DNA of 64,000 nt from Antedon mediterranea (GCF_964355755.1 NC_092672.1:11280501-11344500), one strand, 5' to 3'. Counted from the first letter of the stretch, positions 1 through 22,000 are shown. Numbers and translations are program-made. The notes: generated from the letters alone by a model not told the origin.

Positions 1-769
1 TGGGAACTACAACCACAATACCTGCACTCACACACGTAAGTTATAGACGTTTATTGTACCGTTCGGATGTCTGAATGTTGTAGAAAAAATAAACAAACAT
101 CTTTTTGTATGATTATTTCGAATGTAGTTTTTTTACTAACTATATCAATAAGTTGAATAATGTGATTTTCCTTTAGAGCGCCAACCTCAGAATTGGTGGA
201 AGCTTGATCTTGGAAATTCTTACACAGTCAGATTCGTGAGAATTTACAATAGACACGGTAAAAACTTATCTAGGCAAAGAACATGAATTATTCGTTCATA
301 TTCTATTACTTTATTAAATATGCATTAGGTGTGACGTAATAATTGGACTGCCTCACATTATATATTACTTGAGGCAAGTTTAGGTAACAAGCAATATAGG
401 CCTACTATTATAATATAATAATAAATTCATGTTAAAACAATACGTTAGTACAATTGCCATATTGTACAATATAACAATAGAAACAAAAATAGGCCTAATA
501 AAGTTTGTTTTAATACTGAGAAATTAAAGTAACAATGAATTAAATTTAAGATTGCTGTAGAGAGCGATTAGCTGGTGCCATTGTCCGTGTTGGCGATGAC
601 GAAGGCATGACGTCAAACCCTCAATGCGGAGAACCAATAGCAGCTGATGACACTACTGCATCATCCATCATCGACCGACAGTGCAATCCTACACTTGATG
701 GTCAATACGTCAGTATATCCCTAGAAAACAACTACCTAACTCTTTGTGAAGTCGAAGTATGGGGAGATG
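1..769 (+). CDS. FTP (F-type lectin) domain 1, three exons, first one partial
   Basis: Exons 1-35, 177-257 and 551-769 encode the end of the A segment (a CTHT motif), the B segment ([18 protein letters not shown]) and the C segment starting DCC and ending [12 protein letters not shown]. The fucose-binding pattern is complete: His of CTHT, 26 residues, then R-H-D, four residues, Arg. The two introns split this motif. All junctions are phase 1. Confidence 0.85.
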
Positions 770-3700
770 GTATGAACTAATGTAGTTAGCGCAATAGCGT
801 ATTAATTTTATGTGTAAAAGCATGTACAAATCTTTCAGAATAATAATAAATAATAGCTATAATTAATATATTTATATATATATAATAATAATCTTTTAGA
901 GATAAAAAATAAATGTCACGGGCACTTGTGTGTCTGTATGCATACAATGTTCCAAGCTAAAACAGAATTCTTTGTTTATCTTTTTCAGGAGATATGGAAA
1001 GACCTGTCGTTTCTGAATCTCCTTCTGGTAATGCTCACTACTGGTCATAACAGACTAGATAATCATATTAAGATATGAATCCTATTCTTGACTTATCTTG
1101 TATTAGGCTTACATATAAATATAGTTCTAATTCTCCTGTCATTCTACTGCAGATACGAGGCTTCATACATGAAAGTCTTCCAGTGGATCTGAATACATGT
1201 CATGTAATGATATAAATATGTATATAATTATGACACTAAATAACTAATTCTAAATATGGTTAGATTCTAGCCCAATGAAGCAGCGGCTACTGCAAAACCA
1301 GCATGATGATAATAATTATGATTATTATGAAGTATTTTAAAATTAATTTAAGATGAAAAAATGAATGAATAAGGTACAATTACGAGAAAATTTCGAGAAA
1401 AGAAAAGAGCAAATATCTGACAATACCGTGCTCCCTGAAGCAAAGCTACTTTGAAATAGATATTCAATTTAAACCTGTTTGGGGCTGCTTCATTGGACTT
1501 GAATCTAAAGGGCCTTTCACACCTGTTCCGGCACGGTTCCGGTCCGGCAAATCGAACAAAAATGTTTCGTTTTTACGACGCTCCACGCAGCCAAGCACCA
1601 ACCGATATGCGCGTAGCCGCGTGAAAACGAAACATTGACGTTCGATTGGATTTGCCGTCGCCGGACCGGAACCGTGCCGGAGCAGGTGTGAAAGGCCCTT
1701 AACTCTAGTCAGGCAAGCTCGATTGTCTAGAACGCTAGGCTAGAGATACCGGAGTAAATGGGTTAGTGTCCCAAATTTGAATTGTATTTATGTTTACTTG
1801 CTAAGGGTTGTTGTCGGCTGGAAAACCCACTGCTCAGAGTTCATTAGGATGGCAAGGTTTATCGATGAGAGCCGTTGATGGCGATTACGGGGCAAGATAC
1901 AACCAGAGAACTTGTACTCATACTCGTGAGTTTTTACATTAATGATTATAGTGTACATTCTGTTATTACTTTTGCCAATAATTATATTATTAGTTGGCTA
2001 TTTTTTAATTTTGTTTAATTTGGTAAAATAACAATTTTCAAAGTATATTTATACTTACACTGTTTGTTTAACAATTTGTATGCACGATAGAGAGTCTACA
2101 GTTTTTAAGTTATCTACTTAAATTGTTAGGCCTCACAGAACATATCGATTTTCATGAAAATTATATTGGATGACTTCACAAAAGCTTAAAATCTCGATTT
2201 CCCTTCAACATAAGCTGAAATATTAGCACGCCCTCTGTCCTCTGCATTTTGTCAAACATTTCACTCATTCCTCTGAACGCTGAATGGATTGTTTATATTG
2301 GGGGAGGGGGTGGGGGGTGTCAAATATTAGTGGTCTGCATTTCAACCAATTATTGAAATGCAAATTGTATAAATATAAATCTTAACGAAAAGCTATATGT
2401 GCCCACAGATGGTTCTTTTGATTTACCGAAATTTTTCATAGCGTAAATGTAGGCCTATATATAGATTGATGTTAGTGTTATTTATGATTATCAAAATAAC
2501 AAGCATGCATCTGTATACTTGTATATATTAAAAATGTTTATATTCCACGTTTAGAAAGCGACAACCCAAGTTGGTGGAGAGTTGATCTTGGACAATCACT
2601 AACTGTACGATATGTGAGGATAAGGAATCGAGCAGGTCTTGAATCACGAATTTCATTTTTTTTAAAAATCATTTAAATGTTTATGAAAGTAAATGTAATT
2701 GTACAGTATTGGTACAATTACAGTAATAGTGATAATAAACGTCGACCTTATATTAGTCGATATGCACAAAACTTCAACGCGCTTCACATTATTAACAATA
2801 ATTAAGTAATGTTTTGGATCAAACACGTCTGGAAACATGCTCCCATAATGTTGTGTCTGTAATCAGCGCAGTTGTGTTTTGACCTTTACCAGGTACCCAT
2901 GTTTACACCTGAGAGGCAAACGTAAGTAGAGTGTCTTGCCTAAGGATACAAGCAATGCGACGAACTTCGGATTCGAACTCACGATCAATAGTCCATCCTA
3001 CACGCCTTACGCCATCATATTAGATAATGTTGACTGGTACATTTTATTATGATATTAACATTACCTCCTACCAATTATTATTTTGTAATATTTTGCACCT
3101 AGATTGTTGCAGTGATCGATTAAATAATGCACAAGTTCGTGTTGGTGACAACGAAGATGTGATGTCAAACGCTGAATGTGGAGAAGCATTTACTTTGGAA
3201 GACATCACCAATGTACCTTCCCCAGCCAGAATCTGCAATGGCGATGAAGGCCTTCAAGGACGGTACGTTAGCGTGAACGTAAACAACTATCTAACTCTCT
3301 GCGAAGTTGAGGTTTATGACGGAGGTGAGTAGCCTACGAATACCGTACGATTTGACGTTTTTGTGACGTTGAACATTCAGTAGTCTAGCCACTAGACACG
3401 GTATTTACAAACAAAATTAGCCATCAAACATTCGGTAATGCATTTTAAATAAATATAAATAAATGTATATATTCTCTAAATATAACAGTGTTGCTTACTG
3501 GAGGTACTGCTTCTCAGAGCTCGGATGGATGGGGTGGGGAAGCTGCAAGAGCAATTGATGGAAACCGAAATCATCTTTACGGAGGCAGCTCATGCACACA
3601 CACCCGTAAGTATGCACACTCACACGCGTTCTTGATTAGATTTGGATTTGAAGGTAAACTAACATAAAATAAAGAGAGAATCTAAACATGTTTGTGAGAG

Positions 3701-6700
3701 TGTACTGAAATTGTACTATATCATGTATGATTCCACCGGACTTTCGAGTTAAAATAACGATTGTGAGGCATTTTGATAAACAGGCAAACTATATTGACAT
3801 GTTTTACTATAATAATAATATCACATTTTTATAGCGCCCTTTTATGAATACAAATTATCATTCACTTATGAATGACTTATGTTACACTTCAACTACATGT
3901 ACAGCTAAGTGTGATCTAGCACGACGGGGTAACTCGTGCTCGCCTCGAAAGATACTAGGTTCTTTACAATTGACAATTCTTATCCGATCCGAGCTGAGAC
4001 TTGTTCTACCACCACCATAACCATGGAGAGAGTGACCCTCGAACCCTTGTAATAATAAATTACTCAAAGAGCCGGGCTTCCAGGGAGCCCTTCGCGGCTC
4101 GCTATCCCACAACATAATGTTACTCGCTTCGCTCGCAAAGTATTTTATTTGTATACGTCCCCCACTATTAAAAACAGATCTGTGCCGTTGCTTGTGGCTA
4201 TGCACGGATTACGGTCCCACTGCGTTGACCACTCGGCCACTCACTCACTAAACGTAAAATACAAAACGTAATACAATACAAACATGAAAAGAAATAAAAT
4301 GAAGGCATATTCCTGAAAAGATGAATAGCATATTGAGAGTGAACAAAGTTTAAAAAGGATTTAATAAAAAAAGAAACAAGGATGACCGATTAGGTTTCTA
4401 TTAATTTTTCGTTCTTTTTAACATTCTAAATCGTTACTTTGGCAGACGAAAACAATTTTATCTTTTTGCTCAAAAGAGTACAATAACAATTATAAATAAT
4501 TGACATAAATAACATAATACCATGTTAATTTCGTCAGAATTTTAAATACAGTAACACGCATTTGTAATATTGATATTGATTGGAGTAAACGACAACAAAT
4601 GTTTATTGACTAAACTGATTTAAATCAAAATTGGTTAATAATAAAATCTATGCAACGTTTAAAACTTATTATAAAAGGTCAGAACATTCATCTGACTGTG
4701 TTTATGTTCTATTATCTCTAGTTTAATTTCCATTTTAGGCTGAAAATATATACTGTAGCTCCTCTTGGATGCATCTGGAGAATGCTTTTTATCATTACAC
4801 ATTTTATTTATATTATTTAATGTTTTGTCTTCGTTTTAGAGAATCATCCTAACTCATGGTGGAAAGTCGATCTTCTGGAAACTTTTGACATTACTTCCGT
4901 AACTATTTTCAACAGAGCAGGTACGTAAAACTTACAATGCTTTCTCTCCGGAAGTGCGTACACTCTAAGTTTATTCATACACGAAAGACGAAAACTTGGT
5001 CTTTTGTCATTACATGCAACATGAGAAACAGATGCTAAAGATGATTTTCTTCCAAATACCAGATTGCTGTACAGATCGGATAGTCGGTGCTATCGTTCGG
5101 GTGAGCCGCGAAGAAGATAGCCAATCTGGCGAACAATGCGGCGAACCAGTTAGTAGCATTGATGTTTCACGCTCACCCAGAATCGTTCGAAAATGCACCC
5201 TTAATGGCCAATATGTTTCGGTTACCGTCAGTAACTACCTCACCCTCTGTGAAGTGGAAGTTTTTGGAACACGTAAGTGAGAAACAACATTTCATATGTT
5301 TAATTATAAATCCTAAAATTCAACATCACGTGTCATTCTGCCGCAAACAAATCCAAATCCCGGTAATGATGTGGTAACAATGACGTTAGTTTCATTGGCA
5401 GCATATTGGAGGATTAGGAAATTGATAACGTAGCACTTGCAGTGCATGCTACTAGACGCATTGTTCCCGGTTTACGCTTTAAGCGACACAAGCGCAGCAA
5501 TAAAAGTTTATTAAACCAATTTGTGTTGCTAGTTAGTACACCATGATTGAATTATTCAAATGTTTGACTAATGTATTTGGAAGTTATGCTATAAATGAGT
5601 TTATAATGTGACTCTTTGTAAGCATGTTGTGCTGTAGTGCTCTAGGATAGTGGGTAAGGTTTGTGTTGTGTGTTGTTTGATTGTGAGGTGTCTGAGATGA
5701 TAGACGATAACAATGGGTACGAATATCACATGTATTATTCGTCAAATTAAAATCTAGCTTTCCGTTTCCTTTTTCCTAGACAACAAAGAAAGCAACTGTT
5801 TGTATAAAGCCATCCGACCTTTTAAACAAGTGCCTCGTGTTGAGCCGTGAAATGTGCTAAAAGACAAATTTGTGCAAACAACCATATTTTGTGCAAACGT
5901 GGCACCCTCAAATGTACATGCAAATCTGTAAAAAATGTATTATCCACTGATGTGCACATCACACCGTTAAATGTAAAAACGATAAGTTTTATGTTGAATG
6001 TGCAAATGAGATTCTAAAATGTGCAGACCTGTATTTTTATATATTTTTTTGCATGCGGATTTATATGAGCTCTGGTTTTATCAAATACTAAAAATACCAT
6101 GCCCTGTTCAAAATTCTCTGCACAATTGAATATTGATGCAAGAAAATCATCACAATTTCAAACTGTATAAATTGTTCAAATTGCGCATAACAGAAATACA
6201 GTTTGAATATAATAATAATCTATTGAACTCATTTAACTATGTTTTGTGAATTTCTTTGAAATGAGAGGACAACTATAAAGGACTTCAATTTCGACGGTAT
6301 GGAAGTTACCATCTCCAGCAAGCAGCGACCACGTGTCAGTCTTCTGACATGATTGTGTTTTTTTTTCAAAACAGATTATTTCAGCCTGTAAGTAGGCCTA
6401 CTACAATTAAATATGAAGTGGCTATATTTTGAAACCATGCAATGTTTTCCAAATCTCGCTGTTTTCACATTTGAGGGTAACATTTTTGCACAAATGTGGT
6501 TGTTTGCACAAATGTGACTTTTTGCACATTTCACGGCTCAACATCCCGTCCCAAAAGAAAGCCATACAATTCATGACCAGGCACTCATCATTCGTGAGAG
6601 TAGAAAACAATCATTCTTTCTCTGTTAATAATTATTATTATTTATTTTTTAGCTGATGCTGACACCATAGCTGCACGAGAAGCAGGTAGAAAAAACAATT

Positions 6701-9700
6701 TAATTGTTATAAATAATATTCTTCAAGAGATTTACTTGATCTGAATTTGAAATTATTATTGTATCTCACATATTCTGATACTGATAATATGCTATTATTT
6801 TAGCTGCCGCTGAAGCCGCCCGTTTGTTGGCGGAACAAGAACGAGCAGCAGAAGAAGCACGGCAGAGAGCAGAGGCCGAGGCAGCGGCAGAGGCACAGCG
6901 TTTGTTAGAAGAGAACAGAGGTATAAGACTTGTTGGAGGTGATTCTGAAAGTGAAGGAAGGGTCGAAATATTCTTTAACAATGTATGGGGTAGCGTATGT
7001 GATGATTACTGGGACCTGTTTGATGCATCTGTTGCTTGCAGACAAATGGGGTTCGCGGCAGGAGCACTGGAAGCACCAATGCGAGCTACATTTGGACAAG
7101 CTGTGGGGATAGTAATCCTTCTGGACGACCTTTCGTGTTCTAATGCTCCTGGAGAGAGAGCTTTGACAGACTGTCCTAATGCTGGCATTGGTATTCACAA
7201 CTGTGCTCACAGTGAGGATGCTTGTGCCGTATGTAATAGTAAGTATTATAATTAAACAATCGTGTTTATCAAATATAAGTAAAATACACATTTTGCTTAA
7301 AGATCTATGTTGAAACAGACAGCAGAAACCTTATGTTCCTCCAACCTCCATATTCGGTAGGCCCTACCGTTTTTTGATCACGCGAATGACATTTTGACAG
7401 CACTTTTACGACATTATTTTGAAGTTATATGCTGACTAGTCATCTTAACGGTGCAATTAAATATGTCGTAGGGTTTCAATATCTTCTTTACACTTATTTT
7501 GTAAAAAAAGTTCATGCATTGAGTACGTACTTATAATTAATTATGGAACACAATTAGCAATTCAAAGGTCCATTATAAAACGACTCCAATGTCCGATACT
7601 ATATTATTAGACGGCTTTTTCAGTCGAATGTTTTCCATAAGTATATTGATTTTAAGTAATGCGGAGTAAAATAAACATAACATCTTCATATTTGTTTAGC
7701 CGGCAGTCCACCACCTATTCCTAGTATACATGTTCGACTTGTTGGCGGAAGTAGTGCTAACGAAGGTAGAGTAGAGGTGTACATCCACGGCTTCTGGGGA
7801 ACTGTTTGTGATGACTCTTTTGATCTTAATGACGCAAATGTCTTCTGCAGACAAGCGGGCTTTGAACACGGTGCACAGGATGCCCTGCAAAACGCTCCCT
7901 TTGGACAAGGTACGTCATTAAGCATCGCCCTGGACGATGAAGCTTGCTCTGGAACGGAAACAGACTTTATGAGCTGCGGAAACGCGGGCATCGGAAGACA
8001 CAACTGTGGTCATCACGAGGATGCTGGTGTTATTTGTAATAGTAAGTTGTCGCTTTTTTTCTCTTTGGTGGGGTGTCCCACATTTATTCTCATATGCATA
8101 AATATAAAGACTAAATAAAATATGGTTAGTACGGTACACTATCAGTGTCTAATATCTCTTATTATCTTCCATTGTATTTATTTTCTTTCTTTTTAAATTT
8201 TTGCAAACATTCACAAAAGATATGTTTATTTCTTTTCTACAGCATCCATGGTTTTTTTCTTTCAGTATTTGCATACTCATTTTCTGTATACTTCACATAC
8301 AGAATATAATTTGTTTTATGTGAATTAGCTTTTCTATAGAATATTCATATAAAATATATATTTTCCATGTTACAAAGGTTATACACAAACACAATCTAGT
8401 TAATAATGTTCACAATTCTCTCTTATCCTATTTTAACCATATAATTTTCCTCTTTTAATTATAATTTTTGTATTACCTGCTTTATAATGTTCTTCTCATC
8501 ATTTGTAAAAATGTTGAGATGTAACCTGAATTTTAATTCATTTAAAAACATATTGTATACTGATGTCCTCCAGATCCATTTATTAACTTCCATAAGTATT
8601 TTACGTTTGTATAAACACAATATTCCTAAAGTTCCAATTTTTATAAGAAAATTTTCATTTTTTTAAAAGGAAATTAAGCAAGTTGTCGCTACTCCCTTGT
8701 ATAATAAACTGATTATCCAGTACGTGTATATTCGTTTAAATTAACACTATGAAATTAACTATTCAAGATTCCAGATTCAAGAAATTTTATTTGTCCATAA
8801 AACTGGAAATTCACTTTGCTTGGTAGATTAAAACAACAACAAAAAAACAAACATAAAAAATGTTGCAACAATATAAAACGTGCAGTATTAAACAGATTAA
8901 AATACAAGATAGAGATAAAAATTAAAAAAAACGTTAAAAATGTAAAACTATTTAAAAATTGCATTATCGTCTAACATTAGAATTAAAAATATGAATGCTA
9001 TTTACAACGAAGGATTTTCTAGTTCTACAAAGATTTGTTCTTGGAGATCGTAGCCTAATACCTGATCTATTTAAGTTATAACAGTAATGTAACGGATGAG
9101 TGGGGTCTTTCATAATATTGTTAACTTTTTTTTAAATACTCTTTTCATAGATGAATGAACAAGGCGTTAGATCAGCTTTAATAATACGTTGTGTAATTTT
9201 ACGTGGTCTCTCAATATTTTTCTTATCATTTTCAGTAAAGTTAACCATAAAAACATCCAATGCTAAGAGATAAAATACTTTGAATAATACTTTGATAAAA
9301 TAGAATTAAAATAGTGTTATCAACTCTAATTTGCTTGAGTTTTCTGAGAAAGTAAAGCCTTTGAGATGCCTTCTAGGAAATCATGAGAGAGTTTGACTCC
9401 CATTTTAATTTGTTGTCAATTATAGTACCTAAGTATTTGTATTGGGTTACTCTTTCAACCTCGGTTTCTTTAATAGTTATTACATTATGTTCAACTGCGG
9501 TTTTACGAAAATCTATTATCATCTCTTTGGTTTTAGTAATATTAAGTATTAAGTTCATATCCTCACACCAATTAACAAATCTTCCAACTTCATTAACAAA
9601 TTCATTTACATTATGCTTACTATCGCAAAGAAAACCACTAATTACAGTATCGTCAGCGTATTTTACAATATTGCAATCTTTACTTAAAATATTAAAACTA

Positions 9701-12700
9701 CTTGAATAAAAAGAAAACAAAATTGGGGAAATAACACATCCTTGAGGAGCTCCAACACTGATAGATTCTTTGTTGGATAGGATACCATTGCACTTAACCA
9801 TCTGCGGTCTATTAATCAAAAACCTATATAAAACTTTGGCGAGCTGAGGTGAGACATTAAAACTTAATAATCTATCAATTAAAACATGTGGTAAAATAGT
9901 TAGAAGTTTTCCATATGCGTGGAACAGTACCATTTCTAAAAATAATATTAAAAATATAAGTAAAAATTGGACATAGTTGGATATTGCACACTTTTAAAAT
10001 TCTGTTTGAAATCCCATCTGGTCCAGTTGCCTTTTACACGTGCAAATTATCTTAAAACCTCGTCTTCATTAACAACAACATTATTATTATCATCATTACC
10101 AATATTGTTATTATTATTATCATTATATTCATTATCTTTAATTGTTAAGTTTCTCACTGTTAGTCATATTGACCATCATCAAATCTGCAGAAAAATTTGT
10201 TTAAGGAGTCCACAAACTTCTTGTCACAGTCACCTACGTATTTTTTCGGTTTTTCTTTGTAGTCAGTGAGCATATGCATTGCCTTCCAGGCCGAACGCGT
10301 GTCTTTATCCTTGAAATGTTTTTCCATTTTAGCTTTATATTTTTGTTTTGCTAGATACTAGCATCAACCTCCTTCTGAATTCGCTTCGCTTCATCTTTCT
10401 TACCGGCTGCATATTCTTTTTTCTTTTTAACTATGAGACATTTCGTTTCATGTAAAAACCATGGCTTGCAATTAGGGTAAATTTTTGTCTTCCTTTTAGG
10501 TATAATGGTATCAGCACAATAGTTTATGTATGAACAAACAGCATTTACTTCAACATCGATAGAATTTTCGGATTCTGAGAAAACACCCCAGTCCGTAGAT
10601 TCAAAAAACCCCTTTAGCATATCAATTGCCTCTGTGCACCAGATCTGCCTTTCTTTGACTACAGGCTTCTGTCTTTTTAGGATTGGCTTGTAGAGTGGTC
10701 TTAGGATCACGTTGTCGTTCATATGTAAATGAATTACTTATCTTTCAAAATTATCACCACGAAGTGTTTATCTTTCATAGTTATGGCACCAGCACCAGAT
10801 GTACTTGTTAGACTAGTTGGAGGTGGTGCGGCCAACGAAGGAAGAGTTGAAGTGTGGAGGCTTGGACATTGGGGAACTGTTTGTGACGATTATTGGTCAG
10901 CAGAGGACGCACGTGTGGTCTGCTTCCAACTAGGTTTTACTAGCGGCGAAATGGATTCACCATTACGCGCTAGGTACGGTCCTGGTAGTGGTGCCATTCA
11001 TTTGGATGATGTCAGGTGTAGTGGATCCGAGAGTAGTGTACTCGATTGCCCTTCCATTCATAATCATAACTGTGGCCACCATGAAGATGCTAGTGTTATA
11101 TGTTATAGTAAGTTTTTGGGGCTTAGTGTTGGGGTATGTTCTAAAATTGGGTAGCCGGCCTGCTCTGAGTAATTTGTGTCATGTACATCGTTATAGGCCT
11201 ACAGTATATTTAAGCGCCTTGCTCAGTAGTAGTAAGAACCATCTGAAGATGCACTTTCGATAAATTCTCTTCGCCAACCACGAATTCAAAATTATTCATG
11301 TTTTACTTGAAATATCCTAAAACGTAGACACAGACACGTCGCATTTAGCAAGTGCTAAATCCAATTTTCAAATTTATAATTAATTCCGGTCATGAGAGGC
11401 CCGTTCGGGCCTGGTTATTTTACCTAATGATTTTGACGCTTACCAATGACCAAATACCGTGACCATCACAATAACATTATATAATTATTGGAAATAATAA
11501 TCGTTTTGTTGGAAAAAAGTGTATTAAACACAGAGAGACTAGTTTTGTGGATTTTAAAAAATGTATCGATTATAAAAGTATTAATACTGTATTCACAGGT
11601 AATGTAGGTACTGCCGGTGGCGTTCGATTAGTCGGAGGATCAAACGAACGTGAAGGCCGTGTTGAAATTTATTTAAGTGGAAGGTGGGGTACAGTATGTG
11701 ATGACTACTGGGATAGGAACGATGGTAATGTATTGTGCAGACAGCTAGGCTTTGGTTTAGCAAGTGAAGCCCCATCGAATGCTAGGTTTGGACAAGGAGG
11801 TGGTTCGATTAACTTGGATGATGTTAGATGTTCCGGATCAGAGAGCAGTCTTGGTTCCTGCGGTAACAGAGGAATAGGAGTCCACAACTGTGCACATTCC
11901 GAAGACGCCGGTGTCATTTGTCTTGGTACAGTTTAGATATAAATAAAATATGTTGTATGCGTTTGATAATATAGGACCTGTTGGACCTACTTTCGAATAT
12001 TTATATTTGAAATAATAACTATTAATGAGGATGTGCAAAACATAGTAACGAAACAACCTTTAAATGAGGAAATGTTCTTAGTAAGTACGCTCAAAGTTAG
12101 TCGTCGGAATTTATTGACTATAGCGTGTAAAAGAAGACTTAAGGCTTAAACGCTCATCGGGTCGGGCCGGTGCAACTGGAATGTATAGTTATTATACCAC
12201 ACTATTCCATCGGTCAACTACGCATCACATATTAATGATTATAATTGAATTAGGCCTAATGGTTGTTTAATAGACGTTCACGTTTTTTTTCTTTGTAAAT
12301 TCATAAGTAACTCTGTGATGCATTAATTAAAATTCAAAAACTCAATTATGGTTTCAATAGCCACATGATGGTTCAGAGAAGGACAATAATACGAAGACCT
12401 GAATTTGATGCAATAGATTTGAACGAATTCGAAATCTTAAAGCTCTGTCTACACTATCAAACTTTATGTGACAACAAATATGATGTGCCCATATCTGGAC
12501 ATGATTTCATATCATCACTACGGTACCGTATTTAGGCTTTCATAGTGTAGATAGAGCAGCTTTAGGCCTACCTGATCATCTCCTATTACTTCTAGTTACT
12601 CGTTAATCGTTTATTAATGCGTTTTATATAACACCTATATAAATTCCTGTCATTTGATTGGACGAATGTGGGTCACATGGCGTCCAATAGTACGCACTAT

Positions 12701-13692
12701 TCAACGATCGTTAAATAGTACTTTTTGAAACATTTTTGTGTACGAAAAAAAAACGTCTAGATGTTATATAAAACAAATAATGAATGTTTTGTATTCGTGT
12801 AATGGTACAAATAATGGCACTTGGTGAATGATGAAAGGTTATATCAACTCGGCTTTGCCTCGTTGATATAACCTTTCATCATTCACCTCGTGCCATTATT
12901 TGTACCATTGCACTCATAAACATTCATTATTTGTATAACATAAGGTGGTATATCAAATATTTGTAAAATGTAACGATGAGTAGTAGTTTGTTAAGTTAAT
13001 TTTTACATTTGATTTTTTAAAGCCATTAACCGACCTGCGCGGTTAAGACTTGTTGGCGGAAATGGATATTTCGGACGAGTTGAAATAAATATTGATGGAG
13101 AGTGGGGCACTGTGTGTGATGATTACTTTGGCATAGAGGAAGCTCGGGTTGTCTGCAGAGGATTAAATTTACCAGAAGCTACTGAGGCAATATCAAGAGC
13201 CGCATATGGTCAAGGAAGTGGGCCTATAATATGTGATAACCTTGGTTGTAATGGAAATGAAAATGATTTGGCTGCTTGCTCCTCTAATGGAATTAGAATA
13301 CACAACTGCGCTCATTCCGAGGATGCTTCTGTCTACTGCGGGCGTAGACGTAAATATTATAATTAATTACATACGTTAATATTGTTTTTAATATATTTTA
13401 ATAAAGTGGTGTGTTGTTCAACCGTACCACCCTATCCAATCTAATGAACCCGGATCTAATGGTTAACGCACCTAAATATGAAGTAGAATGGGATCTGGAT
13501 TCGAACCGGTTTGGGTTGGCTTTTTCTTATTTTCACAGAATTCCTCATCTTTACAGAGTAGGCCTACTTGATACATTTTCAGTGATAACAATTTTACAAT
13601 CATTACACTATTAAAGCTATATTTGTTTTATTCTCTCTGCAGCTTTACCTAGACTACATTGCAGCTGGAGCAGAGGCTGTTGGTGGGGTTAA
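1..13692 (+). CDS. FTP-lectin / SRCR multidomain protein, 3' part of gene (5' end outside window)
   Basis: Predicted secreted or cell-surface recognition protein. Coding exons by splice site and phase are 1-35, 177-257, 551-769, 989-1027, 1806-1925, 2555-2635, 3103-3324, 3489-3605, 4840-4920, 5063-5272, 6653-6685, 6804-7238, 7700-8041, 10781-11107, 11599-11925, 13023-13349 and a short last exon 13643-13692. Domain order is FTP (fucolectin-type) x3, an Ala/Glu/Arg-rich coil, then SRCR x5. All introns are phase 1, so every exon is a symmetric 1-1 module. The FTP copies keep the fucose-site spacing H-X26-R-X-D-X4-R. The SRCR copies show the WGTVCDD, CRQLGF and HNC..SEDA signatures of group A. 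The family binds fucosylated glycans (FTP) and polyanionic or microbial ligands (SRCR); binding by this protein is inferred. The 5' exons and any signal peptide lie upstream. The last exon is the least certain part. Confidence 0.88.
989..1027 (+). CDS. Short linker exon between FTP domains 1 and 2
   Basis: A 39-nt exon (tttttcag acceptor, G|gtaatg donor) reads [14 protein letters not shown] in the same phase-1 frame as its neighbours. It is a hydrophilic linker with no recognisable domain. Supported only by splice sites and frame. Confidence 0.55.
1508..1700. mobile_element. Foldback MITE, family A (copy 1)
   Basis: Inverted ends of about 40 bases begin AAGGGCCTTTCACACCTG and include CCGGCACGGTTCCGG. 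The interior has paired ACGAAACATT/AATGTTTCGT blocks. A relative lies at 44691-44846. No coding capacity. Confidence 0.75.
1806..3324 (+). CDS. FTP domain 2, three exons
   Basis: Exons 1806-1925 (starts [12 protein letters not shown], ends RTCTHT), 2555-2635 ([20 protein letters not shown]) and 3103-3324 ([16 protein letters not shown], ends [12 protein letters not shown]). The fucose motif H-X26-R-A-D-X4-R is intact. The intron between the second and third exons contains a SINE fragment. Confidence 0.87.
2775..3005 (-). mobile_element. tRNA-derived SINE copy (no insert)
   Basis: Read on the minus strand it has a tRNA B-box-like GAGTTCGAATCCGAAG near 2970-2985, then TATCCTTAGGCAAGACAC, GCCTCTCAGGTG and GGGTACCTGG. 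It ends near an AGCGCG tail at about 2780. The same body, interrupted by another element, occurs at 49110-49520. Confidence 0.6.
3489..5272 (+). CDS. FTP domain 3, three exons
   Basis: Exons 3489-3605 ([20 protein letters not shown], ends SCTHT), 4840-4920 ([20 protein letters not shown]) and 5063-5272 ([20 protein letters not shown], ends [12 protein letters not shown]). The fucose motif is intact. The second exon has diverged most: the usual T-V-R-Y-V-R-I core is replaced by D-I-T-S-V-T-I. The first intron carries a tRNA-derived SINE. Confidence 0.87.
3820..4245 (-). mobile_element. SINE-like element with tRNA-like head and GGGCGCTATA tail
   Basis: On the minus strand it opens with an A-box-like GTGGCCGAGTGGTCAACG (about 4218-4238). 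It contains GGGTTCGAGGGTCAC (B-box-like) near 4033-4047 and ends in AAGGGCGCTATAAAAATGTG at about 3823-3843. The two boxes are about 180 bases apart, much wider than in a tRNA, so the head looks interrupted or composite. The open frame on this strand is a by-product. Confidence 0.5.
5838..6543. mobile_element. 706-bp foldback element in the intron before the coil exon
   Basis: Perfect 20-base terminal inverted repeats (TGTTGAGCCGTGAAATGTGC at 5838 and its complement at 6524-6543), continued by paired TTTGTGCAAACA and CCTCAAATGT blocks. No transposase frame; non-autonomous. No clear target duplication. Confidence 0.75.
6653..7238 (+). CDS. Linker exon plus coiled-coil and SRCR domain 1
   Basis: Exon 6653-6685 ([10 protein letters not shown]) leads into exon 6804-7238. 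The latter begins with about 38 residues rich in Ala, Glu, Arg and Gln (such as [20 protein letters not shown]), then a complete SRCR domain starting [19 protein letters not shown]. An internal Met at 6824 could be mistaken for a start, but the open frame and the tag acceptor at 6801-6803 make this an internal exon. The SRCR has the six group-A cysteines plus one extra, in HSEDACAVC where other copies have EDAGVIC. Confidence 0.85.
7700..8041 (+). CDS. SRCR domain 2 (single exon)
   Basis: A Pro/Gly-rich lead ([10 protein letters not shown]) is followed by [30 protein letters not shown] and [13 protein letters not shown]. Six cysteines; those at group-B positions C1 and C4 are absent, so this is group A. 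Length 342 nt, phase 1 to phase 1. Confidence 0.9.
8758..10722 (-). mobile_element. Degenerate CR1-group LINE (connector, RT, 3' tail)
   Basis: Reverse-oriented in the intron between SRCR 2 and 3. The pre-RT connector (minus, 10722-10351) has [18 protein letters not shown] and [11 protein letters not shown] core at 9933-9373 has [13 protein letters not shown] and the catalytic [10 protein letters not shown]. The C-terminal tail continues in broken frames to about 8970 ([38 protein letters not shown]). The 3' end at 8758-8785 reads TTCTTGAATC(TGGAATC)TTGAATAG, a short tandem tail typical of CR1-group elements. Several frameshifts and stops; dead copy, no endonuclease left. Confidence 0.8.
10781..11107 (+). 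CDS. SRCR domain 3 (single exon)
   Basis: The domain starts [17 protein letters not shown] after a lead reading MAPAPDVL, with [17 protein letters not shown] and [13 protein letters not shown]. The exon follows a 2.7-kb intron filled by a reverse-oriented LINE whose 5' remnant ends only about 60 bases upstream of this exon. Length 327 nt, phase 1 to phase 1. Confidence 0.9.
11599..11925 (+). CDS. SRCR domain 4 (single exon)
   Basis: A short glycine-rich lead (NVGTAGG) precedes [34 protein letters not shown] and [13 protein letters not shown]. Six cysteines, group A, 327 nt, phase 1 to phase 1. The donor is G|gtacag. Confidence 0.9.
12437..12564. mobile_element. Foldback MITE, family B (AAGCTCTGTCTACACTATC)
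   Basis: Inverted ends AAAGCTCTGTCTACACTATC and GATAGTGTAGA..CAGCTTT flank GATGTGCCCATATCTGGACA. One of about six family members in the window. It lies in the intron before SRCR 5. Confidence 0.7.
12624..12940 (+). mobile_element. Hairpin element, family C (intact copy 1)
   Basis: About 317 bases: a unique half (CACCTATATAAATTCCTG to AACGTCTAGATGTTATAT) followed by a long palindrome whose arms (about 50 bases, 12806-12906) share GGTGAATGATGAAAGGTTAT. A nearly identical copy in the opposite orientation is at 46780-47094; palindrome fragments are at 22590-22740 and 56540-56632. Confidence 0.75.
13023..13349 (+). CDS. SRCR domain 5 (single exon), divergent
   Basis: The lead INRPA precedes [40 protein letters not shown] and [13 protein letters not shown]. 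It has an extra Cys (IICDNLGC) and lacks the usual RQLGF. The chosen end is C|gtaaat at 13349; a second in-phase donor lies at 13343. Most diverged of the five repeats. Confidence 0.85.
13643..13692 (+). CDS. Probable terminal exon of the lectin/SRCR gene
   Basis: A strong pyrimidine-rich acceptor (ttttattctctctgcag) followed in phase 1 gives a 16-residue, Trp- and Cys-bearing tail ([15 protein letters not shown]) and a TAA at 13690-13692. A second acceptor 18 bases on (cattgcag) would instead give [16 protein letters not shown] and a stop. No transmembrane or GPI-type tail is seen in either case, so secretion is inferred if this is the true end. Confidence 0.45.
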
Positions 13693-13924
13693 GGCAAGTT
13701 CTACGTCGCATCTCTGATGAACTACAGAAAAACAGTTATCTTATATTCTATTTTGGCTTTTTGGCGAAATTTATATCTTTTTGTGGGGATTCTTTATATT
13801 TCTAGAATTGTATTCAAACAAATTAAATACTATTAATGCAACAATACCTTTTGAATATTCCTTTTTTTGTGTTACATTTCGTATGTATGTCTTAGCTGCT
13901 GAGAGAGTTAAGTTGGCGAGTCTT

Positions 13925-14845
13925 GTCCAAAAAAATGGGGTTTTTATTCAAGAATAACAACAATAGCGACATTTTGTCGAGAATAGCGACAGTGCTGTGT
14001 CAACAAAATAGAGAAACGGTCCAATAAAGCGAAATTTATAATTTGTCCAAACTGTGGAAATGTCGTCGAGAATAGCGACAATGCTGTGTATAATAGAGAA
14101 ACGGTCCAATAAAGCGAAATTTATAATTTGTCCAAACTGTGGAAATGTCGTCGAGAATAGCGACAATGCTGTGTATAATAGAGAAACGGTCCAATAAAGC
14201 GAAATTTATAATTTGTCCAAACTGTGGAAATGTCGTCGAGAATAGCGACAATGCTGTGTATAATAGAGAAACGGTCCAATAAAGCGAAATTTATAATTTG
14301 TCCAAACTGTGGAAATGTCGTCGAGAATAGCGACAGTGCTGTGCATAATAGAGAAACGGTCCAATAAAGCGAAATTTATAATTTGTCCAAACTGTGGAAA
14401 TGTCGTCGAGAATAGCGACAGTGCTGTGCATAATAGAGGAACGGTCCAATATATAAGATAATTTAGATTTTCCCACATTGTGGAAATACTGTCCAGAATA
14501 GTGACAGTCGTACTGTGTAAAGTGTAAACAAATATTGAGAAAGTGTGCGAAGTGTTAATTCAGCTTTAAATGTTTTGTTCAGAATATGTCTATATTGTGA
14601 CCAAAATTGAAAAACTGTCATATAGTAATAGAGAAATTCGTCCAAAGTGTGGAAATTGTCCAGAATAGCGACAGTGTTATGTCAAAAATAGAAAGAAACT
14701 GTAAAATAGTATAAAGAAATGCATACTAGTGTCCAAAATGTGGAAATTGTGTCTGAAATAGCGACAGTGCTGTATCAACAAAATAGAGAAACAGTCCAAT
14801 AAAGAATTATTCAAAATGTGGACATTTTGTCCAGAATAGCGAGTG
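13925..14845. repeat. 85-bp tandem array with decayed flank
   Basis: Five consecutive unit starts (ATTTGTCCAAACTGTGGAAA at 14041, 14126, 14211, 14296, 14381) give an exact 85-base period. The core is about 13957-14460 and more diverged copies run to about 14845. Each unit contains GAATAGCGACA and CCAATAAAGCG, so an AATAAA hexamer recurs every 85 bases on the plus strand just downstream of the SRCR gene. Confidence 0.92.
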
Positions 14846-19000: not shown

Positions 19001-22000
19001 GTGTCAATTATAGTGTGAACTCTCTACTATTACTAACCTTCTTCTAAAAGTTTACCTTGGCTTGTTGAACCTTCTGTTATATGCTCTGGTTCTTCAGGGT
19101 CGATTTGCACATAAGCCATTGTCTCTTCTGTAGTGTTAATGTTGTTACCAGTATTGGGCGGGCTCTATTGTTGTAAAAGTGTGCACAAAAAAAGAATTTT
19201 TTTAAGAGTAAGGAAAAAAAGAGAGTGTGATAGTGGAGGCGGTGAGGTATAATTTTTAGAGAAATGTTGATAAAAAATAATGTAAACTTGACTTGATATG
19301 GGTGATGTATGGACAATGTATTTACTAATGTAGCCACAGGATGAAAATAACCAAATGTTTGGTTATATACAGTAATTAAAATGTGTGATGCTAGGTGACA
19401 ATCTAGTTAGCAAAACCAGAAATCCATTGTTGAGTAAAATAGTGTTTATGCAAATCATGGTCAACATGAATTTGTTTGTTCATTATTGTATGAAATTAAT
19501 GTATTTAAAAATATTCTGTATTATTACTATACAAATTAAAACAATAAATTAATGAATGCACTTACTGCTATATTGGAGTCATTGAAATTAGCATGTATTG
19601 GTGATTGTAAACTCTGTTGTTTTGATTGACAATCAGGAAAATCTTGTTTTAATTGCAGAGACGATGTCAGAGTGTCAGAGAAGGATCTCAAGATGGAAGG
19701 TGCCTGTGAAGTATTGAAATGTGGAGAAGGGGGTGGCTGGTACAGAGATGGCATTTGAAAGGGCATACTTCTTCTAATAGGAATCTCTTGTGCTTTTTCA
19801 TTCTGGATGTTAGCAGTATTTTGTGATACCTTTTGAGACGCCATCGATTCATACTGAATAAGGTCAGATGCAGGCTGCGACAGAGTTTCTGTTGTATTAA
19901 TAGGTTGGGAATACAAGCAGGATGATTCAATCTCTGGTTGTGGTATGTCCAATGGCTGGGTATTCTCTTGATATTGAATAAGATACGGTGTTGAAACAAC
20001 CGCTGTTGGTGGTGGAGTGCGAGCATTATCAAGTTGTACTTCTCTGAATGGAGTGACTGGTGTTGAAATCATTGGAACTTTAGTAAGCCATGACACATTA
20101 TGCTCTTTATTCTGTTGATTTTGATGGATATTTTTCACATTCTGCTGTGCTCTTTCCATTTGATGCTGGTCTTCTACAAGTTCCATTTGATTCTGCTCAT
20201 ACAGCTGCTGTTCTTCAATATACCTCCTGTTCTGGTGTTGTAATGTTCCCATACGCTTCTGTGGACTTTCCAATTGCTGCCTTTCTTGTATGGGACAATC
20301 TAACTGATATTGTTGGTTCATAAGTTTCTCCATCTGCTCCCTTAATTTTATTTGCTCTGATTTTTCCATTTCTACTTGCTGAAGTCTTTCTTTCTTTTGA
20401 TGGCTCTGTTGTTGAAGACATCTGTCCACTTTCTGCTGTATTTTGAATCCTTGTTGTGCTACCTCTAATGGCTGCTGATGTAGTGTTTTCTCCATTCCTT
20501 CCTGCAGTAGGGTTCTCTCCATCGCTTCTTCCTGTAGCATTCTCTCTATCCTTTCCTGCTGTAGTGGTCTCTTTATTTGATCCTGCTGCAGTGGTCTGTC
20601 CAATTTTTTCTTTTGCATAATTCTTTCCATTCGTTCCAGATGTAGCATTCCTACCACTTCTTGTTGGTTTAGTGCTCTAATCATGTTATCCTGTAAAACA
20701 CTCTCCTTTTCTCCCTGCTGTAGTGTTCTAGTCATTCCTTCTTGCTGCAGTGTTCTTTCCATTTGTTCCTGCAGTTGTATTTTTTTCGTTCTTTCCTGCT
20801 GCTGTGATCTATCCATTCCTTCCTGCTGTAGTGTTTTTTGTAGTATTTTATCAATAGTTTCCATGTTCTTTTGTGCTTTTTCATTTTGTTGAAGTAATAT
20901 TTTATCTGTATCAGCTTGTTCTTTTTCCAGTTTCTTTTTTTCATAATATTTCTTGATAAAAAGTACAAAACAAACAAGTTAGAAACTCTATATAATAGTT
21001 ATGAAAATTAACAAAAGCAAGCAACGTAATGTAAGGAACGAATGATTTTAATTTGAAGAGTCAACAAAGACAATAAACAATTGTCAATCTTTCATACTAA
21101 TTAATTCAGTTTAATGTGCTGTCATCTGTTAATTGAGGGGGAGCGAGGGCAAGGGTTGTGGCCAACACCTCCTAAATTATTAGGTCTACTGATAGAATAT
21201 ATATATTAATAAATATATTCAACTGTAACCAATATTCAATTAGTAAAACATATAATTCAAGAACTCATTTTCATTGCTGTTCACACGTTGATATCTGGGT
21301 CATGCTACATCCAATGCCTAAGAATGAAGTCTGAACTATAGTATTGGGCTCGCTCTACACATCAATTGCTCTAAAACAATTGCGGTTTGATCTTTGTGGT
21401 GATCATACAAGTGTCCGTTAAAAAATTACAAAGGTTCACGATTAACAGATTTTTAAATTTATATACTTATATAGACTAAATTAAATTGTATTCATTAGGA
21501 AAGTTACAGAAAGACTTTTGAATGGATAAATTTCTCTAAAACGCAGGGGTTCAACTTGGCAGCTTATTGTTATTCGCTCCTCTCGCAAGGTACTCAATAT
21601 TTTATTAGTTTTGAGCCCCCTCCCCTGGCTAAAAATAAATCCCACACACACACAGGAATGTACATACCTGCATAAGATTGTTTTGTCTTTCTTTTTCTTC
21701 CTCCACTCTTGCAATCATGTAATTGTTATCTTCATTCATTTCTCTAATTTTGTAATCAATTTGATCTGCCTGTAGCTTCATTTTTGCACTTGTGCCAAAG
21801 ATAGTTAAAAAAAATAGAATTGTCACCAAGTGAGAGAGTGATGTCAGAACTATTTATATTAAGTATGTGACTATATCTTTATTGAGCACACTGGACAAAA
21901 TGTACAGTATTTATTATGTTAAAATTAGTAGACTTGTAAAATAGCCATTACATTTTTTACCAATGGTAAAGGATACAGTTCAATAACACAACTTTTCCAG

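Follow-up and report, generated by a model that had tools for sequence, protein, structure and literature searches.

The locus at the start of the window, as we call the whole 64-kb stretch of Antedon mediterranea DNA that was analysed (C3:11,280,501-11,344,500), reads as a single intact animal gene, a full-length sister of which lies close by, and the sequence comparisons support well its translation into a single polypeptide that joins F-type lectin (FTP) domains to SRCR domains. This one functional gene would probably encode a secreted, multivalent recognition protein, for which we infer a role as an agglutinin or opsonin.

The gene model was built from the window together with 10 kb of upstream DNA and comprises 22 exons, the first of which begins about 8.5 kb upstream (near position -8527), so that the window opens mid-gene (Table 1). 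From the signal peptide to SRCR5 the spliced reading frame runs for about 1,230 codons with no in-frame stop and encodes, in order, a signal peptide, a short acidic region, four FTP domains, a helix of about 36 residues, and five SRCR domains. Three exons make up each FTP domain and one exon each SRCR domain. Canonical AG/GT splice sites lie along the chain and every internal junction is in phase 1, which bears out the original prediction of a continuous, phase-compatible exon chain. Searches of the genome (354 Mb in 18 contigs) used single-exon proteins as queries, and the exon encoding the helix and SRCR1 found a paralogue at 80% identity; this second copy occupies C3:11,074,220-11,109,046 on the same strand, with its start 198 kb upstream of the start of the window gene.

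Table 1. Features of the FTP-SRCR gene and its candidate ends, in window coordinates (negative positions lie upstream of the window).
Feature	Position	Strand	Observations
Signal-peptide exon	-8527 to -8392		Sequence MFKLSFLLLFVCCAKLVVSQQ
Acidic region			Three short exons after the signal-peptide exon; the 21-base exon is tentative
FTP1	-1902 to -568		Outside the window
FTP2, whole domain	-84 to 769		First 84 bases upstream of the window
FTP2 exon a, 3' part	1..35	+	Exon starts at -84; splice sites kept in paralogue
FTP2 exon b	177..257	+	Gene model, paralogue splice sites, HMM map
FTP2 exon c	551..769	+	Fucose motif RHDCCRER; Pfam match
FTP3 exon a	1806..1925	+	Gene model, paralogue splice sites, HMM map
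FTP3 exon b	2555..2635	+	Weak donor GTCTTG, identical in paralogue
FTP3 exon c	3103..3324	+	RADCCSDR; Pfam and structure-database matches
FTP4 exon a	3489..3605	+	Gene model, paralogue splice sites, HMM map
FTP4 exon b	4840..4920	+	Gene model, paralogue splice sites, HMM map
FTP4 exon c	5063..5272	+	RADCCTDR; Pfam match
Linker exon, 33 bases	6653..6685	+	Encodes (PD)ADTIAAREA; the 10 complete codons give the same peptide in paralogue
Helix and SRCR1, one exon	6804..7238	+	Ala/Glu/Arg helix joined to SRCR1; PF00530 match
SRCR2 exon	7700..8041	+	PF00530 match, paralogue splice sites
SRCR3 exon	10781..11107	+	PF00530 match, paralogue splice sites
SRCR4 exon	11599..11925	+	PF00530 match, paralogue splice sites
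SRCR5 exon	13023..13351	+	Donor at 13352 (CGTAGAC/GTAAAT) aligns with paralogue donor (CCATGA/GTAAGT); slash marks the exon edge
In-frame TAA	13364..13366	+	Read-through end if the SRCR5 donor is unused; AATAAA at 13400
Candidate terminal exon	13643..13692	+	Open for about 16 residues, then TAA; good acceptor; no paralogue counterpart

Single FTP exons gave no Pfam match, the domain being split over three exons, and the assembled domains were used instead; all four scored above cut-off (PF22633, E-values of 1.5e-11 to 2.2e-19; PF00754, 2.5e-9 to 6.9e-11). The top match of FTP3 was striped-bass FBP32 (1e-42), and the same domain matched the eel lectin AAA (1k12) at 3.2e-15. Three domains with a complete fucose motif had been predicted, and these proved to be FTP2, FTP3, and FTP4, in which H-X26-R-X-D-C-C-X-X-R is intact (family motif H-X24(26)-R-X-D-X4-R/K), but the gene also holds a fourth, variant domain upstream, FTP1, that reads H-X26-R-N-S-F-G-E-R and keeps the basic triad but has lost both the Asp and the vicinal cysteines. 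A composition shuffle of FTP3 returned a similar motif pattern in 0.2% of trials, and three matches at the homologous position are therefore not a matter of chance. The cation motif h2DGx is matched by FTP3 and FTP4, the corresponding residues being AIDGG in FTP1 and AVDAS in FTP2. Tandem FTP domains are shared with MsaFBP32 and the fish tandem F-type lectins (PMC5712786; PDB 3cqo), which provide the best solved relative of FTP3. The N-terminal domain of FBP32 resembles FTP2-4, and its C-terminal domain (NR-DSFEKR) has in common with FTP1 a shortened R-x-S-F-x-x-R block; in that C-terminal domain the triad is retained, the disulphide of contiguous cysteines is lost, and avidity is lower (Vasta et al., PMC5712786). 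FBP32 differs in having two FTP domains and neither helix nor SRCR, against four FTP domains, a helix, and SRCR domains here.

All five SRCR exons matched PF00530 (9.4e-25 to 1.2e-31; scores of 87-109 bits, cut-off 26.1) and, in the PDB, CD163, DMBT1, MARCO, and others, with SRCR4 matching DMBT1 chains at 1e-36 to 1e-39. The predicted count of five stood, and the assignment to group A needs qualifying: the six group-A cysteines are found in SRCR2-4, but SRCR1 and SRCR5 have seven. Vertebrate group A domains are split over two exons, unlike those described here, each of which is a single exon. One exon per domain is reported for sea-urchin SRCR domains (PMC10855680). Cation-site positions in SRCR1-5 were mapped from the residue numbering of SALSA SRCR8, whose cation-coordinating residues are D1019, D1020, D1058, D1059, N1081, and E1086, and in which substitution of D1019 or D1020 left no binding to hydroxyapatite, heparin, or a streptococcal protein (PMC7043408). 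The residues of the dual cation site (CDD, LDD, HNC, and H[SH]ED) are present in SRCR1-4, and SRCR5 carries CDN in place of LDD. Direct polyanion binding through a basic SRCR face was rejected, as each of the five domains has a negative net charge (-4 to -11), and the polyanionic ligands originally proposed are accordingly unlikely in that basic-surface form; cation-bridged binding of anionic ligands would be a better fit to such strongly negative domains. DMBT1 carries CUB and ZP domains, neither of which occurs among the exons found for this gene (in the model ending at the SRCR5 region), and it is without FTP domains, unlike the gene here. Like the product here, SALSA/DMBT1/gp340 has many SRCR domains, and this glycoprotein carries the same cation-binding residues (PMC7043408).

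The helix exon is rich in Ala, Glu, and Arg, and AlphaFold placed a helix at residues 2-36, with pLDDT of 82-91 over the first 30; the SRCR part was modelled poorly (pLDDT <50, only two sequences). As modelled, a helix between two lectin-like blocks suggests that chains bundle, as collectins do, or that the helix is a rigid spacer. In the working we propose, the helix would bundle chains into an oligomer, the clustered FTP sites would bind fucosylated glycans on microbes or self with avidity, the SRCR arms would bind anionic or sulphated ligands of microbial or host origin through bridged Ca/Mg, and the molecule would agglutinate or opsonise, much as DMBT1/SALSA with a tandem F-type lectin added might do. 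Two-ended binding of this sort is plausible from the fucose motif in three of the four FTP domains and the Ca/Mg residues in SRCR1-4 and, nearly, in SRCR5; against a secreted agglutinin stand the incomplete motif of FTP1 and the departure of FTP1 and FTP2 from h2DGx. Recognition may instead serve a non-immune end, such as gamete recognition or the organisation of extracellular matrix, as F-type lectins are sperm bindins in oysters and act in fertilisation (PMC5712786) and SRCR domains bind matrix molecules (PMC7043408). We consider this less likely: the genome shows an expansion of SRCR genes and of F-type lectin genes alike, which would better fit a repertoire for microbial recognition.

The reading as a secreted protein depends on the 3' end. 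The prediction had called the product a receptor; a signal peptide is present, but the search turned up no convincing transmembrane exon, and because there are several candidate C-terminal ends and the hydrophobic candidates are weak, we do not use that name. Since the SRCR5 donor is conserved, a further exon is implied. The exon at 13643 with which the predicted chain ended is open and has a good acceptor, but it is one candidate end among several and has no counterpart in the paralogue, where blastn, tblastx, and comparison of terminal peptides found no homologous C-terminal exon. The same ectodomain could be anchored in the membrane if SRCR5 were followed by an exon for a transmembrane segment or a GPI signal, to which the conserved donor would point; phase-compatible hydrophobic candidates lie at 13728 (QLSYILFWLFGEIYIFLWGFFIFLEL) and 14884 (SNVLMIVLIVVAYVYSI-stop), and the three hydrophobic candidates counted slightly exceed chance, since Markov controls average 0.5 and 4% of them reach three. 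However, the candidate acceptors are weak, A+T-rich DNA readily yields hydrophobic stretches (many occur in the paralogue flank too), and those found here have no above-chance similarity to that flank, so that a membrane-anchored receptor seems to us rather improbable. Directly 3' of the gene lies an 85-bp tandem array (window 13976-14451; 5.6 copies, 97% matches).

Evidence that the two halves belong to one gene comes chiefly from the paralogue, in which four FTP domains are followed by the linker exon, the helix-SRCR1 exon, and SRCR domains to a total of 12. Apart from the tentative 21-base exon, every exon of the window gene has a colinear counterpart there, and the helix part matches these two loci only in the whole genome. 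Protein identity is mostly 89-100% for the FTP exons (71-77% for FTP1 exons a and b) and 61% for the signal-peptide exon, whose homologue makes the 5' end of the gene clear. Where FTP, linker, and SRCR exons were checked, their AG/GT sites and phases are kept, and Ka/Ks between the copies is 0.30 overall (1,197 aligned codons); by this measure both copies are under purifying selection. Phase compatibility was rejected as proof of one gene, nearly all such modules being 1-1. The single FTP-SRCR polypeptide originally proposed is well supported instead by the colinear paralogue, the splice phases shared with it, the identical linker, purifying selection, and the want of an intervening start exon. 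It is very unlikely that two adjacent genes are present, namely a gene for a four-FTP lectin, ending after FTP4, and another for the helix and SRCR domains. With all introns in phase 1, phase alone is uninformative on this point, the halves are separated by 1.4 kb, and AATAAA-type signals occur both in the interval and all along this A+T-rich sequence; yet neither the linker nor the helix exon contains a start codon or signal peptide, and in neither copy did the FTP4-to-helix interval hold an ATG exon that combines a signal-peptide-like start with a strong phase-1 donor, so that a separate SRCR gene would have no start. Furthermore, the FTP half reaches a good donor (GTAAGT) without a stop, and FTP4, linker, and helix are colinear and in frame in both old copies. 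A pseudogene or assembly chimera, as might be suspected from the weak donor at FTP3 exon b, an SRCR count below the paralogue's, and transposon pieces within introns, is scarcely credible: all 22 exons are open and their splice sites intact, Ka/Ks is 0.30, and the order and the odd donor recur at a second, independent locus.

The single gene and its sister differ in how their parts have diverged. SRCR2, SRCR3, and SRCR5 are at or near synonymous saturation between the copies and their introns cannot be aligned, from which we conclude that the copies are old. The FTP2 and FTP3 exons are about 95-98% identical (window 1-3324 against C3:11,079,616-11,086,337), with Ks of 0.07 and 0.04 respectively, such that about 5% of synonymous sites differ. 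Introns inside FTP2 and FTP3 have no alignment above chance, identity ending 3-33 bases past the exon edges, and introns between FTP3 exon c and the linker exon align at about 88-93%. The simplest account of these patterns would be gene conversion confined to exons, with a single longer tract spanning FTP4-linker; alternatively, strong constraint on synonymous sites may have produced the near-identity of FTP2 and FTP3. More tentatively, the pair may form a family of two genes for oligomeric, bispecific lectins, fused once and kept, with the FTP block homogenised repeatedly and exon by exon through conversion and the SRCR arms diverging and changing in number (5 vs 12), a history that we regard as possible but short of probable.

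The FTP4-linker intron holds a terminal-inverted-repeat element (window 5838-6543) with 52-nt arms that are 92% complementary; at least 38 copies of its left end are dispersed over the genome, and this end also occurs in the paralogue's intron. A fragment of non-LTR-type reverse transcriptase (RVT_1, 8.7e-14) lies on the minus strand of the SRCR2-SRCR3 intron (window 9373-10737), and a long near-perfect palindrome (hairpin) was seen by eye in the SRCR4-SRCR5 intron (window ~12764-12942). Across the 64-kb window, TAGGCCTA is in excess at 43 copies, which together with the SRCR expansion suggests an echinoderm; AGGCCTA occurs 47 times, as compared with 0-3 times in Markov controls. A COX1 search, intended to place the phylum by its mitochondrial code, found no mitochondrial contig. 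Farther downstream, a Gln/Glu-rich open frame of 480 aa on the minus strand (window 19536-20978) matched nothing in Pfam above cut-off.

Lectins that are mosaic or hold several FTLDs are already familiar, and FTP domains are joined to other recognition modules in Xenopus pentraxin-FBPL, Drosophila furrowed (CTLD/CCP/TM), and sea-urchin SpCRL (CCP/FIMAC); unlike the gene here, none of the mosaic F-type lectins in the review of this family is partnered with SRCR, the partners being CTLD, pentraxin, CCP, transmembrane, and FA58C (PMC5712786). Our literature searches likewise found no description of the order FTP, helix, and SRCR, in keeping with its having been thought undescribed, but F5/8-type-C domains are already catalogued in sea-urchin SRCR proteins, 36 of them in S. 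purpuratus according to a 29-species survey (PMC10855680). Because PF00754 also matches the FTP domains here, some of those proteins may themselves be FTP-SRCR. They have the PF00754 match and one exon per SRCR in common with this gene; their order, FTP subtype, and any helix linker do not appear in the main text of the survey (PMC10855680). FTP-helix-SRCR is thus an unusual combination of well-known parts within a known class of mosaic immune proteins, and not a new category. Elsewhere in the genome, FTP, SRCR, FTP, and FTP exons lie on one strand at C8:5,541,131-5,574,741 (minus), in an order differing from that of the window gene and with repeated short exons, one of them weakly C-type-lectin-like (E 0.055); this locus is perhaps a second, different FTP-SRCR mosaic. 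At C11:680,991-697,772 one strand carries an FTP domain and, 15 kb later, an SRCR exon.

If expressed as modelled, the gene would place two unrelated recognition systems, fucose-specific FTP and cation-dependent SRCR, in one soluble molecule with the helix coupling them, and would be a clear case of phase-1 exon shuffling in the building of innate-immune repertoires. Were the two-gene family history true, a common lectin head would be borne on differing scavenger tails. The paralogue pair also offers a test of how a binding head could be kept uniform by conversion while the domains attached to it diversify.
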